This document shows, in pieces, positions 2,796 to 19,502 of a DNA stretch of 64,000 nt. The notes beneath the pieces are model-generated. The model was not told the origin of the DNA. It ran no database searches and saw only the letters and a list, made by a program, of their open reading frames with translations. The position numbers and the translations under genes are program-made. Location of the stretch: positions 7,260-71,259 of the forward strand of contig JAVHYF010000005.1 of NCBI GenBank assembly GCA_031119205.1, in the 5' to 3' direction. Source of the stretch: Moraxellaceae bacterium (lineage in GTDB: Bacteria; Pseudomonadota; Gammaproteobacteria; Burkholderiales; Rhodocyclaceae). The number at the start of each line of letters is the position of its first letter. Within the stretch, counting starts at the first letter, position 1.

Positions 2796-4946
2796 ATGTC
2801 CATCGACATGAGCCGCTTCCACGCCACCTTTTTCGAGGAGGCGCAGGAGCACCTGGGCAGCATGGAGTCCCTCCTGCTGGAGATCGATCTGTCTGCGCCG
2901 GACGCGGAGGCCGTCAACGCCATCTTCCGTGCCGCGCATTCCATCAAGGGATCGGCCGGCACGTTCGGCTTCAATGATCTTGCCGAAGTCACCCACGATC
3001 TTGAGACCCTTCTGGACCTTGTGCGCAAGGGCGAGCGGGCGCTGACCGAGGACATCGTCGACGCTTCGCTGGTGGCCGGCGACGTGCTCAAGAACCTGCT
3101 GGCAGCCCACCAGGGGCAAGGCGAAGCCGACCACGATGCGGCGGAACAGATCCGTGCGCGGCTGGTGCAGCTTGCCGCCAACCCGGGTGCGGGGGCGGAC
3201 ACCAATCCGGTACCCGCCACGACGGCATTGGTGGCCTATCGTCTGCATGCCCACATCAGTGGCGGTGACGCTGCCCGGCTTGCCGAGAACCTGCGCCAGG
3301 AGTTGCTGGCAGTCGGCAGCGTGGAGGAGTTTTCGCTGGATGCCGAAGGCACGCTCACCGTGCTGATCCAGGGAACATCCAGCGCCGAGGAGCTGACGGG
3401 CATTCTCGATTACGTAGCGGATACTGGTAGCGTGCGCGTGTCCGCGATAGCGACAGCGAGCATGCCGACGGCCGTGGCCGAGACGGCCGCCGGTGATGAC
3501 GACCCGGATGGTGCTTTCGGTTTCTTCGCGCCGCTGGACGACGCGAACGACGTTGCTACGGGTGAGCCGGTGGTTGCCACCCAGTCGTCCGGATTCGAAG
3601 CCGACGATGGCTCGTTCGGGCTTTTCGATGTCAGCAGCTTGCCGGCCCAACAGGCGATGGCGCAGCCTGCGGGCGTCGCGACGACCAGCGCCCGGCCGGT
3701 TGCCGATGCCGCACCTGCTGCCAGGGCAGAACAGAAGGGCGCCGGCGCGGCCGCGAAGGCAGCACCCGACAGCTCGATCCGCGTCAGCGTCGAGAAGGTG
3801 GACCAGATGATCAATCTGGTGGGGGAGCTGGTCATCACGCAGGCGATGCTGGCCCAGGCTGCGGCCGATGTGGACCCGCAGTTGCACGAGCGCCTGCTCA
3901 ACGGCATCGGTCAGCTTGCACGCAACACGCGCGACCTGCAGGAGTCGGTGATGTCGGTGCGCATGTTGCCGATCTCCACCGTGTTCTCGCGCTTCCCGCG
4001 ACTGGTGCGCGACCTGTCGCAGAAGCTCGGCAAGAAGGTGCAGCTCATCATGACCGGCGAGCACACCGAATTGGACAAAACCCTGGTCGAGCGCATCACC
4101 GATCCGCTGACCCATCTGGTGCGCAACAGCCTGGACCACGGCATCGAGTCGCCCGAGGCGCGCGCGGCAGCGCAGAAGACCGAGATGGGCACGCTCATGC
4201 TGCGGGCCTATCACCAGAGCGGCAACATCGTCATCGAGGTGTCCGACGACGGTGGTGGCCTGCATCGCGAGCGCATCCTTGCCAAGGCGCGTGAGCGCGG
4301 CCTGCCGGTGCACGACAACATGAGCGACCAGGATGTCTGGATGCTCATCTTCGAGCCCGGCTTCTCCACCGCCGCGGCAGTCACCGATGTGTCCGGTCGT
4401 GGTGTCGGCATGGACGTGGTGAAACGCAACATCGCTGCCATGAACGGGCGCGTCGAGCTGGACTCTGTCGCTGGCGTAGGCACGCGCGTCACCGTTCGCC
4501 TGCCGCTGACGCTCGCGATTCTCGATGGCATGTCGGTGGCCGTGGGTGACGAGACTTACATCATTCCGCTGGACTACGTCGTCGAGTCGCTGCAGGCCAC
4601 ACCGACGATGGTCAAGAGCGTGTCCGGTCGCGAGTGCCTGATCCAGATCCGCGGCGAGTACCTGCCTGTCATCGGTCTGCGCGAGCAGTTCCGGGTGCCC
4701 GGCGAAGGGCCCGGATTCAGCGAGGGGATCATGGTCGTTCTGGAGAGCGATGGCACCAAGGCCGCGCTGTTCGTCGACGCGCTGATCGGCCAGCACCAGG
4801 TGGTGATCAAGAGCCTGGAGGCGAACTACCACCGGGTCCTCGGCGTGGCCGGCGCGACCATCATGGGTGATGGTCGCGTGGCACTGATCGTGGACGCCGC
4901 GGCGATGGTCAACCTGGTGCGGCGCAGCCTGCCGGTGGCGGCCTGA
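2796..4946 (+). CDS. cheA: Chemotaxis histidine kinase CheA (first copy)
   Basis: A 716-residue CheA. The P1 HPt domain holds the phosphorylated His48 in 'AAHSIKGSAG'. Residues about 145-220 ('VAYRLHAHI' onward) look like a P2-type domain. A long acidic/alanine linker (about 225-325) contains two similar motifs, DGAFGFF (238-244) and DGSFGLF (271-277). Dimerisation P3 begins near residue 327. The P4 ATPase has an N box 'LVRNSLDHGIE', a G1 box 'VSDDGGG' and a G2 region 'GRGVGMDVV'. The P5 CheW-like domain closes the protein. The ATG at 2796 has 'gggaggcg' upstream. It transfers phosphate to CheY and CheB and couples to receptors through CheW, encoded next. Confidence 0.96.
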   Translation: MSIDMSRFHATFFEEAQEHLGSMESLLLEIDLSAPDAEAVNAIFRAAHSIKGSAGTFGFNDLAEVTHDLETLLDLVRKGERALTEDIVDASLVAGDVLKNLLAAHQGQGEADHDAAEQIRARLVQLAANPGAGADTNPVPATTALVAYRLHAHISGGDAARLAENLRQELLAVGSVEEFSLDAEGTLTVLIQGTSSAEELTGILDYVADTGSVRVSAIATASMPTAVAETAAGDDDPDGAFGFFAPLDDANDVATGEPVVATQSSGFEADDGSFGLFDVSSLPAQQAMAQPAGVATTSARPVADAAPAARAEQKGAGAAAKAAPDSSIRVSVEKVDQMINLVGELVITQAMLAQAAADVDPQLHERLLNGIGQLARNTRDLQESVMSVRMLPISTVFSRFPRLVRDLSQKLGKKVQLIMTGEHTELDKTLVERITDPLTHLVRNSLDHGIESPEARAAAQKTEMGTLMLRAYHQSGNIVIEVSDDGGGLHRERILAKARERGLPVHDNMSDQDVWMLIFEPGFSTAAAVTDVSGRGVGMDVVKRNIAAMNGRVELDSVAGVGTRVTVRLPLTLAILDGMSVAVGDETYIIPLDYVVESLQATPTMVKSVSGRECLIQIRGEYLPVIGLREQFRVPGEGPGFSEGIMVVLESDGTKAALFVDALIGQHQVVIKSLEANYHRVLGVAGATIMGDGRVALIVDAAAMVNLVRRSLPVAA

Positions 4947-13678: not shown

Positions 13679-13739
13679 CCCTGTTGCAGTGGTGCACCTG
13701 CGAGAAAGCAGGTGCGGAACGAAACAACGGAGCACCCAA

Positions 13740-14699
13740 ATGTCCGAATTGCTCAAGGCAGTTGATGCACGAACCCGGTTGGCGGGAACCAACAAACTGG
13801 AGATCCTGCTGTTCTCGCTGGGCGTCGATGGACGTACCGGCCGGCGCGAGAGCTTCGGCATCAACGTCTTCAAGGTGCGCGAGGTGATGCGCACGCCCGC
13901 AATCACGGCTGCGCCGGACATGCAGACAGGTGTTGAAGGCATGGTGTCGCTGCGTGGCCAGCTCGTGCCGGTGGTGGATCTCGCCAAGTACTGCGGCATC
14001 GATCGCGAGGGCAAGCGCGAGATCATGATCGTCACCGAGTACAACGGTCACACACAAGGCTTCCTGGTCGAGGGCGTGGACACCATCCTGCGCCTGGACT
14101 GGTCGAACATGCGGGTGCCGCCGGACATGCTGACCAACCGCCTGGGCGGCATGGTCACCGCGGTGAGCGAGCTCGAAGACGGCCGCCTCATCATGATGCT
14201 GGACGTCGAGAAGGTGCTCTCCGAGACCACCAAGTACGACGACGAATTCATGTTCCGCGACATCAAGCCGATCGGTCGCGACATGATGGTGTTCTATGCG
14301 GATGACTCCTCCGTCGCTCGCAAGCAGATCGAACGCACGCTGAACGTCCTGGGCTTGCGCCACAGCGGCGCCATCAACGGACGTATCGCCTGGGAAGAGC
14401 TCGACAAGATCGCCACCCATGCCGAGATGACCGGCCGGAAAGTGTGGGAGCTGGTGCACCTGATCCTCACCGACGTCGAGATGCCCGAAATGGATGGCTA
14501 CATCCTGACCCGCAAGATCAAGTCCGACCCGCGTTTTGACGGGGTCCCGGTGCTGATGCATTCCTCCCTGTCTTCCATGTCCAACCAGACGCTGGGCAAG
14601 TCGGTAGGCGTGGATGGTTACGTGCCCAAATTCGAACCGCACAAGCTGTCCGACGCGATCCGCGCCATGCTGGCGCCGGAACAACTGGTCGCGGCCTGA
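13740..14699 (+). CDS. cheV: Chemotaxis coupling protein CheV (first of two)
   Basis: A 319-residue CheW-receiver fusion. The CheW domain occupies about residues 1-165 ('[14 protein letters not shown]', 'MVSLRGQLVPVVDL'). The C-terminal receiver has 'YADDSS' and the phospho-acceptor Asp in '[14 protein letters not shown]'. CheV couples receptors to CheA in a phosphorylation-dependent way, or acts as a phosphate sink. The ORF track starts 17 codons early at 13689; the ATG at 13740 is preceded by 'ggag' and matches the start of the paralogue next door ('LLxxxDxRTRLAG'). Confidence 0.94.
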   Translation: MSELLKAVDARTRLAGTNKLEILLFSLGVDGRTGRRESFGINVFKVREVMRTPAITAAPDMQTGVEGMVSLRGQLVPVVDLAKYCGIDREGKREIMIVTEYNGHTQGFLVEGVDTILRLDWSNMRVPPDMLTNRLGGMVTAVSELEDGRLIMMLDVEKVLSETTKYDDEFMFRDIKPIGRDMMVFYADDSSVARKQIERTLNVLGLRHSGAINGRIAWEELDKIATHAEMTGRKVWELVHLILTDVEMPEMDGYILTRKIKSDPRFDGVPVLMHSSLSSMSNQTLGKSVGVDGYVPKFEPHKLSDAIRAMLAPEQLVAA

Positions 14700-14735: not shown

Positions 14736-15671
14736 ATGGATACGCAAAACTCCAACCTGCTTGAATCGATAGACGGCCGTACCCGGCTGGCGGGCTCCAA
14801 TCGCATGGAGATCCTGCTGTTCAGCCTGGGTACCAGCGAGATTTTCGGCATCAACGTGTTCAAGGTGCGTGAAGTCTCTAAGACGCCCTTCATCACCAAG
14901 TCGCCGAACATGCCGCACGGTGTGGAAGGGCTCATTTCCCTGCGTGGCAATGTCATTCCGGTGCTGTCGCTGGCCAAGGTCATCGGCCTGGCGAAGCCGG
15001 GCGCACCGCTCGGTGGCTCGATGATGGTCACCGAGTACAGCAAGCGCACGCTGGGTTTCCTCGTCAATGATGTCGATCGCATCATCCGCGTGGAATGGGG
15101 CAAGGTCCGCCAGCCGGAGAACATGGCGGCACAGAATTTCATCACCGCCATCACCGACCTGCCTGACGGCAAGCTGGTGTCGATCCTGGATGTCGAAACC
15201 ATCATGGCGCAAACCTTCGGTGAGCCGGCGATCGGCAGCATCGAGGCCATCGATCAGGATGGCGAACGCAATATCTTCTTCGTGGATGACTCCAGCGTGG
15301 CCCGCCGCAAGATCGCGGAAGTGCTCGACAAGCTGGGTATCCGCCACAAGCATGCCCTCAACGGCATGGAAGCGTGGACCCGCCTGGAGGGTCTGGCCAC
15401 GCATGCGCAACAACAGAAGCGGCGTCTCGCCGAAGAGCTCGACCTGATCCTGGTCGACGCCGAGATGCCCGAGATGGACGGCTATGTGCTCACTCGCCAC
15501 ATCAAGAGTGACAGCCGTTTCGACGGAATCCCCGTTGTGATGCATTCGTCGCTGTCATCGGAGGCGAATCGTTCGATGGGCAAATCGGTGGGCGTGGATG
15601 CCTACGTAGCGAAGTTCGATGCAGAAATTCTCGCCGATACGTTGCGCCCGTATCTCATGAAAGCAAAGTAA
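14736..15671 (+). CDS. cheV: Chemotaxis coupling protein CheV (second of two)
   Basis: A 311-residue CheV, paralogous to the upstream one across its whole length. The CheW domain shows '[15 protein letters not shown]' and '[16 protein letters not shown]'. The receiver has '[12 protein letters not shown]', a phospho-acceptor Asp in '[14 protein letters not shown]' and the same '[13 protein letters not shown]' loop as its neighbour. It starts 36 bases after the first cheV stop. Tandem divergence suggests that each CheV serves a different receptor set or CheA, but that is inference. Confidence 0.94.
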
Positions 15672-15697: not shown

Positions 15698-16093
15698 ATG
15701 TCGGATCCCAAAATGAAATTCCTGGTTGTTGACGATTTTTCGACCATGCGCCGGATTGTCCGCAACCTGCTGAAGGAACTCGGATACACCAACGTCGATG
15801 AGGCGGAAGACGGTGTTGCGGCCATGCAGAAGCTGACCGCAGGCGGCTTCGACTTCGTCGTGACGGACTGGAACATGCCGAACATGACCGGCATCGAGCT
15901 GCTGCGCGCGATCCGTGCCAATGCGCAGCTCCAGCACCTGCCGGTGCTGATGATCACCGCCGAGGCCAAGAAGGAAAACATCATCGAGGCAGCGCAGGCA
16001 GGTGCCAGCGGCTACATCGTGAAGCCCTTCACCGCCGCGACCTTGTCCGAGAAGCTGGGCAAGATCTTTGAAAAGATGCAGGCAGCAGCCTGA
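15698..16093 (+). CDS. cheY: Chemotaxis response regulator CheY (second copy, flagellar-type)
   Basis: A 131-residue receiver close to the classical enterobacterial CheY: D12-D13, phospho-acceptor D57 in '[12 protein letters not shown]', '[15 protein letters not shown]' and Lys in 'YIVKPF'. It is followed 25 bases later by cheZ, the usual cheY-cheZ pair. This copy is therefore the likeliest flagellar-switch CheY and CheZ substrate. 'ccggag' precedes the ATG. Confidence 0.96.
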
Positions 16094-16118
16094 TCTGCAC
16101 CGACAAGGAGCCCATGAC

Positions 16119-17078
16119 ATGGCCAAGCGGCAAAAAGCAGACGAGACTGGTGACAACGCCGAATTGCAGGCGTTGTTCGACAACATCGCCGGTGAGGCAG
16201 GTGCGCCCAAGCTGGCAGTGGTAGCGGGTGGGGCCGCGTCCGAAGAAGCAGGCGATTCGGCTGACCTGCAGACTCTCTTCGATTCCGTTGCCAGCAGCGC
16301 AGCTGCCGTGGCGGCAGCGCCGGCGGTTGTACCGGCATCCCCGGACACCAGCGACTCGGCTGACCTGCAGGCGCTGTTCGACAACGTGGCGGCGGGTGGC
16401 GCTGCGCCCGCGGCATCCAAGGCGGCCAGCGAACCCATCGTCGTCCACATTCCCCAGACAGCGGAAGAGCGCCAGGAGTCGGTGTTCAACAAGCTGGGCA
16501 ATCTGACCCGGTTGCTGCACGACACGCTGTGCGAACTGGGCTACGACAAGAAGCTGGAAGAGACCGCGCAGAAATTGCCGGACGCCCGTCAGCGCCTGAC
16601 CTACATCTCGCAGATGACGGAGCAGGCCGCCAGTCGCGTGCTGAACGCGACCGATGTCGCCAAGCCGATCCAGGATCGTGTCGAGGAAGACGCCAGCATG
16701 CTGTCGTCCCGCTGGGACAAGCTCTACGGCCGCGAACTGTCGGTCGACGAGTTCAAACAACTGGCTGGCGACACGCGCGCCTTCATGAACCAGGTGAAGG
16801 AAGACAGCAAGGTCGTCAATGCGCAGCTGCTGGAAATCATGATGGCGCAGGACTTCCAGGATCTGACCGGCCAGGTCATCAAGCGCGTGGTCGACATGGC
16901 CCAGACGCTCGAGACCGAGTTGCTGGGCGTGCTGATCCAGTCGGCGCCTGAAGGCAAGCTGAACCTGGCTGCCGACGAAGGCCTGCTGAACGGCCCGGTC
17001 GTCAATGCGGCGGGTCGCGACGATGTGGTGACCAACCAGGAGCAGGTCGACGATCTGCTCGAAAGCCTGGGCTTCTGA
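16119..17078 (+). CDS. cheZ: CheY-P phosphatase CheZ with a repeat-bearing N-terminal extension
   Basis: The ATG at 16119 has 'aaggag' 8 bases upstream; the track start at 16068 lies inside cheY. The protein is 319 residues, about 100 longer than the 200-215 usual for CheZ. The catalytic signature 'FQDLTGQ' is at 246-252 and the CheY-binding C-terminal helix 'QVDDLLESLGF' ends the chain, so the enzyme looks active. The extra N-terminus holds three spaced copies of a 14-residue motif of the form (G/S)D(S/N)A(D/E)LQxLFDxxA (residues 11-24, 45-58, 78-91) in Ala/Pro-rich linkers. Their role is unknown; they look like helix-forming docking motifs. Confidence 0.95.
   Translation: MAKRQKADETGDNAELQALFDNIAGEAGAPKLAVVAGGAASEEAGDSADLQTLFDSVASSAAAVAAAPAVVPASPDTSDSADLQALFDNVAAGGAAPAASKAASEPIVVHIPQTAEERQESVFNKLGNLTRLLHDTLCELGYDKKLEETAQKLPDARQRLTYISQMTEQAASRVLNATDVAKPIQDRVEEDASMLSSRWDKLYGRELSVDEFKQLAGDTRAFMNQVKEDSKVVNAQLLEIMMAQDFQDLTGQVIKRVVDMAQTLETELLGVLIQSAPEGKLNLAADEGLLNGPVVNAAGRDDVVTNQEQVDDLLESLGF
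16149..16391 (+). repeat. Three-copy degenerate repeat in the cheZ 5' region
   Basis: Copies at 16149-16190, 16251-16292 and 16350-16391, 42 bases each, at periods of 102 and 99 bases. Translations: GDNAELQALFDNIA, GDSADLQTLFDSVA, SDSADLQALFDNVA. The protein motif is better conserved than the linkers between the copies, implying selection on the peptide. Confidence 0.85.
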
Positions 17079-17120
17079 GCCAACTGAGCAAACCTGAGCG
17101 CGTTCTGAGCGGAGTACGAG

Positions 17121-19049
17121 ATGAGTGACTTTGGGGGCATGGAAGACCTGTTGCAGGATTTCCTGATCGAGGCGGGCGACTTGCTGTCCGGTGTGGACAA
17201 CAAGCTGGTCGATCTCGAACGGGCGCCGAATGACAAGGGCTTGCTCAACGACATTTTCCGGGGGTTCCACACCATCAAGGGTGGCGCCGGCTTCCTCAAC
17301 GCGACCGAACTGGTGACCTTGTGTCATCTCACCGAGAATCTGTTCGACAAGCTTCGCAACGGCGAACTGTCGATCACGCCGGAGGCGATGGACGTGATCC
17401 TCGCCGCTACCGGCGCGGTGCGCGACATGTTCGGTTACCTCGAACGTGGCATCCAGCCAGCGCCCGCGGATCACCAGATCATTGCCCAGCTCAAGCTGGC
17501 ACTGGCTGGCGAGCTGAAGGCCGGCGCCGTGCCGGTGGCTGCTCCGGCGCCTGTTGCGGCCAAGCCAGCCGCTGCGCCTGCGCCCCAGGTCGCGCCGGTG
17601 GCAGCCAGCGCAGTCGGTGAAGACGGGATCGACTGGAACGCCTACTACTTTGCCGTGACTGGCGTGCAGCCGGGCGCGGTGGTGTCCGTGGTTCCGGGCG
17701 AACCCGAGGTGCATCTCGAAGACGCCAAGGCGCAGGAAATCATCCAGGCTGCGATCGGCCGCCGCGCGACCGACAAACCCGGCTACAGCGGCCCGACCGG
17801 CCGACGTACCGAAGAGCGCCAGCGCGACAACTCGATCCGCGTCGATACCTCGCGTCTCGACCAGGTGCTGAACCTGTCGGGCGAAATCGGCCTGACCAAG
17901 AACCGCCTGAACGCGCTTCGCAGCGACATCCTGAACGGCAAGAACGATACGGACACGCTGCATGCGCTGGACGTGGCGGTCAGCCAGCTCGACCTGCTGG
18001 TGTCGGATCTGCAGAACGCCGTCATGAAGACGCGCATGCAGCCGATCGGTCGCCTGTTCCAGAAGTACCCGCGCATCGCACGCGACCTGGCCCGTTCGCT
18101 GGGCAAGGACGTGGAGCTGGTGCTCGAAGGCGAAGAGACCGAGATCGACAAGACGATGATCGAGGATCTGTCCGATCCGATCATCCACTTGATCCGCAAT
18201 GCGGTCGATCACGGTGTCGAACTGCCGCACGAGCGCCTTGCTGCCGGCAAACCGGACAAATCCTTCGTGCGCCTGGAAGCGCGCCAGGAAGGCGACCACA
18301 TCCTCATCCTCGTGGCCGAAGACGGCCGCGGCATGAATGCAGAGAAGCTGCGCGCACGCGCCGTGGAGAAGGGCCTCATCTCGGATGAGGAAGCCAACAC
18401 CATGGATGAGCGCCAGAGCTTCAACCTCATCTTCCTGCCGGGTTTCTCCACGGCGGCGCAGGTGTCCGACGTGTCCGGCCGTGGCGTGGGCATGGATGTG
18501 GTGCGTACCAACATCCAGAAGCTCAACGGCACCATCGACATCAAGTCGGAGCTGGGCAAGGGCACGACCTTCATCATCTCGCTGCCGCTGACCCTGGCAA
18601 TCCTGCCGGTGCTGCTGGTGTGCCTGGAAGACCAACCCTTCGCGGTGCCGCTGTCCATGGTCCGCGAGATCCTGCCGATCGTGCCGAACGAGGTGCAGGA
18701 GCTGGGCGGCCGTGCCACCCTGGTGGTACGTGGCGAAGTCCTGCCGATCGTGTCGCTGGCAAGCCTGCTGGGCTGGCCGCAGAACCAGGTGCCCGAGTAC
18801 GGTGTGTTGATGCAGACGGCCGAACAGAGCTTCGTGCTGGCCATCGACAGCTTCGCCGGTCGCGAGGACGCGGTGATCAAGTCGCTGGATGACTTCCGTC
18901 CCAAGGGTGTCGCGGGCGTCACCACGCTGTCGAACGGCCAGATCGTGCTGATTCTGGACATGAAGGAACTGCTCGCAGCCATGGGCGACCAGAAGGTGGC
19001 CACCCGTTCTGCACTGCTGCTCGAGGACCGCGTCGCCCAGGCAGCCTGA
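17121..19049 (+). CDS. cheA: Chemotaxis histidine kinase CheA (second copy)
   Basis: A 642-residue CheA paralogue. P1 carries the phosphorylated His50 in 'GFHTIKGGAGF'. No P2 domain is evident: an Ala/Pro linker (about 130-165) leads to a short conserved-looking block ('DGIDWNAYYFAVTG') and then P3 near residue 237. P4 has 'LIRNAVDHGVELP', 'VAEDGRGM' and 'GRGVGMDVVRTNI'; P5 follows. All catalytic motifs seem intact. It sits after cheY-cheZ, so the second half of the cluster encodes its own kinase, regulator, phosphatase and coupling proteins (CheV). Whether both CheAs share one array is unknown. Confidence 0.95.
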   Translation: MSDFGGMEDLLQDFLIEAGDLLSGVDNKLVDLERAPNDKGLLNDIFRGFHTIKGGAGFLNATELVTLCHLTENLFDKLRNGELSITPEAMDVILAATGAVRDMFGYLERGIQPAPADHQIIAQLKLALAGELKAGAVPVAAPAPVAAKPAAAPAPQVAPVAASAVGEDGIDWNAYYFAVTGVQPGAVVSVVPGEPEVHLEDAKAQEIIQAAIGRRATDKPGYSGPTGRRTEERQRDNSIRVDTSRLDQVLNLSGEIGLTKNRLNALRSDILNGKNDTDTLHALDVAVSQLDLLVSDLQNAVMKTRMQPIGRLFQKYPRIARDLARSLGKDVELVLEGEETEIDKTMIEDLSDPIIHLIRNAVDHGVELPHERLAAGKPDKSFVRLEARQEGDHILILVAEDGRGMNAEKLRARAVEKGLISDEEANTMDERQSFNLIFLPGFSTAAQVSDVSGRGVGMDVVRTNIQKLNGTIDIKSELGKGTTFIISLPLTLAILPVLLVCLEDQPFAVPLSMVREILPIVPNEVQELGGRATLVVRGEVLPIVSLASLLGWPQNQVPEYGVLMQTAEQSFVLAIDSFAGREDAVIKSLDDFRPKGVAGVTTLSNGQIVLILDMKELLAAMGDQKVATRSALLLEDRVAQAA

Positions 19050-19178
19050 ATGCTGCGCTGCACAGGCGTTGCGGCCGATTTGCGACTTACTGCCGCCTAG
19101 AAAGCTATCGTCGGCTTGAATGCCGTCAGTACCCCGGCGTAGGATGGGGTCACTGGCGGCATTTTCATTGGAGCGGCG

Positions 19179-19502
19179 GTGGCCCATCCCTCGCACGAGA
19201 ACTTCGATTTCGACTACTGGAGCGCGCTCGCCAGGCGTGATCCGGCGGCGTTCTTCGCGGAACGTGCGCAGATGATCGAAGCCTTCATCGCCTCGGTGCC
19301 TCCCCAGCACCGCGACAACATGCGCAATCTGCAGCAGCTCATCGACGCCACCCGCCTGGAAGCGGGCACCCCGATGCAGGCAGTGCGCAAGATGATGGGC
19401 ATGCTGGGCGACCAGCTCGGTGCCTTGCAGGGCCAGCTCGTCGAGCTGCGCAAGGAGTCCGACAGACTGGTCGAGGTGGCCGACCGGCTCAATACCCGCT
19501 GA
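19179..19502 (+). CDS. DUF3135-like small protein downstream of cheA
   Basis: A 107-residue protein with a GTG start (TTGGAG just upstream). The N-terminus 'FDFDYWSALARRDPAAFFAER' begins a mostly helical, charged chain ending in a probable coiled coil. I recognise the pattern as that of the DUF3135 family, of unknown function. It follows cheA by 129 bases, in which I see no clear terminator, and precedes cysM by 49. It could belong to either transcript. Function is not inferred. Confidence 0.75.
   Translation: MAHPSHENFDFDYWSALARRDPAAFFAERAQMIEAFIASVPPQHRDNMRNLQQLIDATRLEAGTPMQAVRKMMGMLGDQLGALQGQLVELRKESDRLVEVADRLNTR

Follow-up and report, generated by a model that had tools for sequence, protein, structure and literature searches.

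The CheZ protein encoded in the window (the whole 64,000-nt stretch of DNA analysed here) carries an N-terminal extension of ~110 residues with three copies of a 14-residue motif, and our searches showed that, in the samples covered, this motif is restricted to betaproteobacterial CheZ. The motif array is a newly recognised variant of CheZ: no repeated N-terminal motif was found described for CheZ in the open-access literature. Tentatively, we infer that the repeats are docking helices like that of FliM, most likely for CheY, with CheZ holding several CheY molecules by avidity, a reading that we place somewhat short of an even chance.

The cheZ gene and its N-terminal repeats

The gene (319 aa, 16119..17078, + strand) encodes, according to Pfam and its sequence, an N-terminal extension (residues 1 to ~115) followed by the CheZ core (residues 121-319). 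Membership of the CheZ family is certain: the Pfam CheZ model (PF04344) matches residues 121-319 with an E-value of 7e-76, chain Z of 1KMI matches the protein with an E-value of 5e-53, and the phosphatase segment D-x-x-x-Q (DFQDLTGQ), here MMAQDFQDLTGQ, can be read directly in the sequence. The canonical C-terminal CheY-binding helix QVDDLLESLGF (17043..17075, + strand) is also retained and is conserved in relatives. The protein therefore shares with E. coli CheZ (PF04344, PDB 1KMI) the core domain, the DFQDLTGQ segment and the C-terminal QVDDLL-SLGF helix, whereas the canonical N-terminal helix of the E. coli protein is replaced here by a flexible extension with the repeated motif.

The three copies, GDNAELQALFDNIA (residues 11-24, 16149..16190), GDSADLQTLFDSVA (residues 45-58, 16251..16292) and SDSADLQALFDNVA (residues 78-91, 16350..16391), all on the + strand, were seen in the sequence and in a profile search of the genome, at exactly the residues given in the preliminary description. 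The spelling given there, D-A-x-L-Q-x-L-F-D, is one residue short and should read D-x-A-x-L-Q-x-L-F-D; the best spelling of the CheZ motif is D-x-x-[DE]-L-[QE]-A-L-F-D-x-[IV]-A. When the 120-residue extension was shuffled 400 times, with copies counted as 12-mers at least 8/12 identical, three copies never appeared (one in 396 shuffles, two in 4). The DNA of the three copies is only 60-76% identical, and a fresh duplication of DNA can thus be dismissed; considering that they differ at 24-40% of DNA positions, it is selection at the protein level, rather than copying in the recent past, that keeps the motif copies alike. Across 156 aligned copies from relatives and the window, D, L, L and F are invariant and the following D is present in 98%, while the linkers vary freely, in agreement with the earlier remark that the motif is far better conserved than the Ala/Pro stretches between its copies. 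The same description had raised the possibility that translation begins downstream of the repeats. This is unlikely, since a Shine-Dalgarno sequence AAGGAG (16105..16110, + strand) lies 8 bases ahead of the ATG at 16119 and the CheZ proteins of relatives start at the same residue (MAKR.K.DE.GD).

The chemotaxis genes of the window comprise a motB-like gene, cheY, cheA1, cheW, mcp, cheR, cheD and cheB, and then genes for a STAS protein and an MCP-like protein, cheV1, cheV2, cheY, cheZ, cheA2 and a DUF3135 gene (for genes with no Pfam match, the names are our own reading). In the same cluster as cheZ lie cheV1 (13689..14699, + strand) and cheV2 (14736..15671, + strand), each with a CheW and a receiver domain by Pfam, and, immediately upstream of cheZ, an E. 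coli-like cheY (15698..16093, + strand; Pfam, and E. coli CheY chains with a best E-value of 2e-61). Downstream is cheA2 (17121..19049, + strand), whose 642-aa product has the order Hpt-linker-dimerisation-kinase-CheW by Pfam. The DUF3135 gene 3' of cheA2 (window 19179-19502) is found in the same place in some relatives, and an antisense open frame of 1093 codons (window 16029-19310, - strand) runs over cheZ-cheA2; in coding sequence as GC-rich as this, a shadow ORF is the most likely explanation.

Distribution of the motif and its linkage to CheA2

A scan of GTDB genomes added 80 relatives to the window's own protein, for a total of 81 CheZ; most of the relatives belong to Rhodocyclales or other betaproteobacteria. 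Of the six search words, some came from the motif and its surroundings and the rest were taken from the core or tail of CheZ; selection of the sample was therefore not on the motif alone. The motif was present in 81/81 of these closest CheZ, in 1-3 copies each (one protein has it in a form outside the search pattern and is counted as motif-bearing), and the absence from orthologues that had been named as an objection was thus not encountered. Copy number, which the preliminary description proposed to compare, does vary, from 1-3 in close relatives to 0-4 order-wide. Seven genomes placed in the window's genus have two copies in CheZ, suggesting that one of the three window copies was probably gained recently. 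In an order-wide draw, CheZ mostly had one copy near its start, some had two, one had three and one (L122) had four; 16 lacked the motif, although two of those counted as motif-less (L200 and L202) retain degenerate forms, DMDALFEAA and DIDSLFDAV.

The motif's reach outside this group was followed by profile search. In the window's own genome it was found in CheZ only, with one chance match at an E-value of 7. The wider searches were draws of genomes in which the first filter was lossy: in the class (369 genomes) the real matches were in the own genome only, and in the phylum (399 genomes) the motif was found in five, all of this order. Two further matches in the class draw were rejected on reading their translations, as argC-like and transglutaminase-like proteins. 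In the true gammaproteobacterial CheZ that we compared, the motif is absent and the N-terminus is different and helix-like.

Presence of the motif follows the neighbouring kinase gene strictly. Among 143 betaproteobacterial loci, which are non-independent cases, 127 had both the motif and an adjacent downstream CheA2, 16 had neither and 0 were discordant; in the order-wide draw the corresponding counts of motif and CheA2 adjacency were 45/0/0/16. About six changes on the CheZ tree are needed to account for motif-less CheZ; only two are forced by branches with good support. Moreover, in three genomes with two CheZ (G457, G406, G481) the motif is only on the copy beside CheA2. Two loci (L207, L208) represent a second, divergent CheZ with neither motif nor adjoining CheA2, in genomes that also hold a motif-bearing CheZ.

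In CheA2 a P2 domain was not found, either by Pfam or by hhalign of the single sequence to E. coli P2 (probability 0.2%). The CheA1 family has P2 (hhalign to E. coli P2, E-value 1e-5, probability 83%); a PDB search with the CheA1 P2 region gave no match. A CheA1-type kinase was present in all motif-less genomes examined. At the same time, the cheV genes are usually in the same cluster as the motif-bearing cheZ, and because they are linked to the same operon the linkage does not single out CheY: alone, it cannot separate docking to CheY from a tether to a CheW-like domain.

Resemblance to known CheY-binding helices

When the betaproteobacterial CheZ motif is aligned with the FliM N-terminus, the CheZ C-terminus (CheZ-C) and a gammaproteobacterial CheA repeat (see below), all four share, from the capping residue, the pattern N-cap-x-x-acid-hydrophobic-[DEQ]-[AD]-L-[LF]-x-x-hydrophobic. 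The aligned columns read D-S-D-D-L-Q-A-L-F-D-S-I for the motif, N-Q-E-Q-V-D-D-L-L-E-S-L for CheZ-C and S-Q-E-E-V-D-A-L-L-K-G-V for FliM, and the motif copies have the capping residue, an acid at +3 and hydrophobics at +4, +7, +8 and +11. Like the FliM N-terminal CheY-P-binding peptide (here MAQDFLSQEEVDALLKGV), the motif is a short N-cap-x-x-acid-hydrophobic-x-x-L-hydrophobic helix in a flexible terminus; unlike that peptide, it is repeated, belongs to the phosphatase, has LF for LL and keeps its capping Asp without exception.

The gammaproteobacterial repeat comes from the orthologous operon, with the order cheY-cheZ-cheA-cheB-...-parC-parP-cheW. There the P1-P3 linker of the P2-less CheA contains the related sequence T-D-x-E-F-E-A-L-L-D-x-L-H-G, mostly in 3 copies (28 loci, L148-L176; as a pattern, [ST]-[DE]-[DE]-E-F-E-A-L-L-D-x-L). 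It has in common with the CheZ motif the multiple [DE]-[FL]-[EQ]-A-L-[LF]-D-x-[LI] core, the operon and the P2-less kinase, but it is carried by CheA, its first hydrophobic residue is Phe, and it often ends in HG. The gamma repeat on CheA and the beta motif on CheZ would therefore be one structural type on different proteins of one operon. No repeat of the gamma type was found in the betaproteobacterial CheA2 linkers (0/127). These have instead one P-D-W-x-x-L-[YH]-x-A-[VL]-T-G element each (105/106 by pattern, the 106th being a near match), which in the window is GIDWNAYYFAVTG (17625..17663, + strand, by pattern match) and around which the linker is otherwise variable; its W-x-x-L-[YH]-x-A-[VL] part was seen in 0/24 gammaproteobacterial CheA linkers. 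The element may be a partner of the CheZ motif or its equivalent.

Profile scores rank these resemblances. Against 383,050 background 12-mers, the gamma CheA repeat profile places FliM above all (<3e-6) and CheZ-C at 5e-5, the beta CheZ motif and the gamma repeat score each other at 1.3-1.6e-4, and the beta motif profile gives modest values of 1e-3 for FliM and 2-3e-3 for CheZ-C, in a register set by eye and not blind. With that register, and with a background drawn from forward-frame ORFs of the loci, the cross-scores express rank and not formal significance, and general helix-capping preferences contribute to the likeness of the motif to FliM and CheZ-C.

The earlier proposal that the LFD in the CheA1 linker is akin to the motif did not hold up: the CheZ motif profile gives the sequence in question, DGSFGLFD, a score of -6.4 bits, and this sequence belongs to a D-x-[GS]-[FYW]-G-[FL]-F motif of P2-containing CheAs, which resembles the CheZ motif in being short, repeated and placed in a disordered chemotaxis linker but differs in its pattern. 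The window's CheA1 has two copies of it after P2 (window 3507-3527 and 3603-3626), and CheA1 of relatives have up to four or, in some, none. In the CheA1-type gene of G380 (L230) the matched region contains a TGA in frame, or else a frameshift, and the gene is possibly broken in that genome.

Structure prediction added little on the ligand. We ran AF2 on read-through translations of CheY and CheZ from one relative (L006), artificial constructs in which the natural stop is read as a residue. With CheY and the CheZ extension, helices were predicted at the three repeats (pLDDT about 57-67), with no confident docking; in the full-length construct, where docking was likewise not confident, the repeats were again helical and reached 46-50, and the known C-terminal CheY helix, our positive control, only about 61-67. 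Since the known helix did no better, the docking result counts neither way.

Candidate ligands of the repeats

Conservation, helicity in AF2, variable copy number, non-conserved Ala/Pro linkers and the type of the motif are all consistent with the amphipathic docking helices of the preliminary description. Of the partners suggested there, all of them candidates, CheY best fits the motif pattern and CheA fits the operon linkage. We favour CheY, which is a partner common to the beta and gamma operon types. The extension would then be a flexible chain bearing between one and four short amphipathic helices, docking sites of the kind seen in the N-terminal peptide of FliM and the C-terminal helix of CheZ. 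Their most likely target would be the alpha4-beta5-alpha5 face of the CheY encoded alongside, probably as CheY-P, and CheZ would gather several CheY by avidity where the kinase, CheA2, has no P2 to hold CheY. Against the CheY reading, CheZ already has a CheY site, and the motif, with its invariant D..L..LF, would seem stricter than CheY binding alone needs.

The strongest rival to CheY docking is that the repeats bind a CheW-like domain (of CheV1 or CheV2, CheW, or the CheA2 P5) or the CheA2 linker, tethering CheZ to the array of the CheA2 pathway. We regard this as a real possibility, with the balance tilted against it. In E. coli, CheZ is recruited by CheA-short. The motif occurs only beside CheA2, with CheV1 and CheV2, both bearing CheW domains, in the same gene cluster, and the beta CheA2 linkers have their conserved PDWxxLYxAVTG where gamma CheA has repeats. 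What makes this rival strong is a precedent in Vibrio, where the AIF domain of ParP binds the CheA LID (PMC5706961, PMC7534058). The related gamma repeat lies in the CheA linker, in the region for which the ParP-binding LID was reported (PMC7534058) and with which it might coincide. Unlike the LID, the motif here is on CheZ, and ParP had no match in the own genome, which makes it unlikely as the ligand here; we therefore set it aside. CheA itself could hardly be the common ligand, as the gamma repeat sits on CheA. Also counting against the tether, the motif resembles known CheY ligands.

A tether to a pole or motor protein encoded outside the operon is very unlikely in our judgement. In Azorhizobium, polar localisation of CheZ does not depend on CheA, and the N-terminal helix alone or the four-helix bundle alone is considered enough for it (PMC7750401), but the betaproteobacterial motif is absent wherever CheA2 is not adjacent, though CheZ remains. 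Self-interaction, in which the repeats pack on CheZ to form oligomers or act as an autoinhibitory pseudo-ligand competing with the C-terminal helix, is slimmer still in our estimate: the repeats imitate the pattern of that helix and the extension occupies the place of the canonical N-terminal helix of gammaproteobacterial CheZ, but in the AF2 model of the full-length fusion none of the repeats rose above low confidence (weak evidence), and the linkage to CheA2 and the related gamma CheA repeat would go unexplained.

Returning to CheY docking, the gamma CheA linker repeat may likewise, from its sequence, be a CheY site in a P2-less CheA. A broader and rather doubtful extension is that a mobile docking motif replaces P2, with FliM-like CheY repeats on CheA in gammaproteobacteria and on CheZ in betaproteobacteria, the CheY-gathering site having been relocated within the operon. 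In a published survey, nearly 52% of CheA sequences lacked the P2/CheY-binding domain (PMC10782961). A conserved motif array confined to P2-less pathways, carried by CheA in one class and by CheZ in another, offers a concrete candidate, cheap to test, for the way in which CheY may be gathered, or CheZ brought to arrays, where neither P2 nor CheA-short is available.
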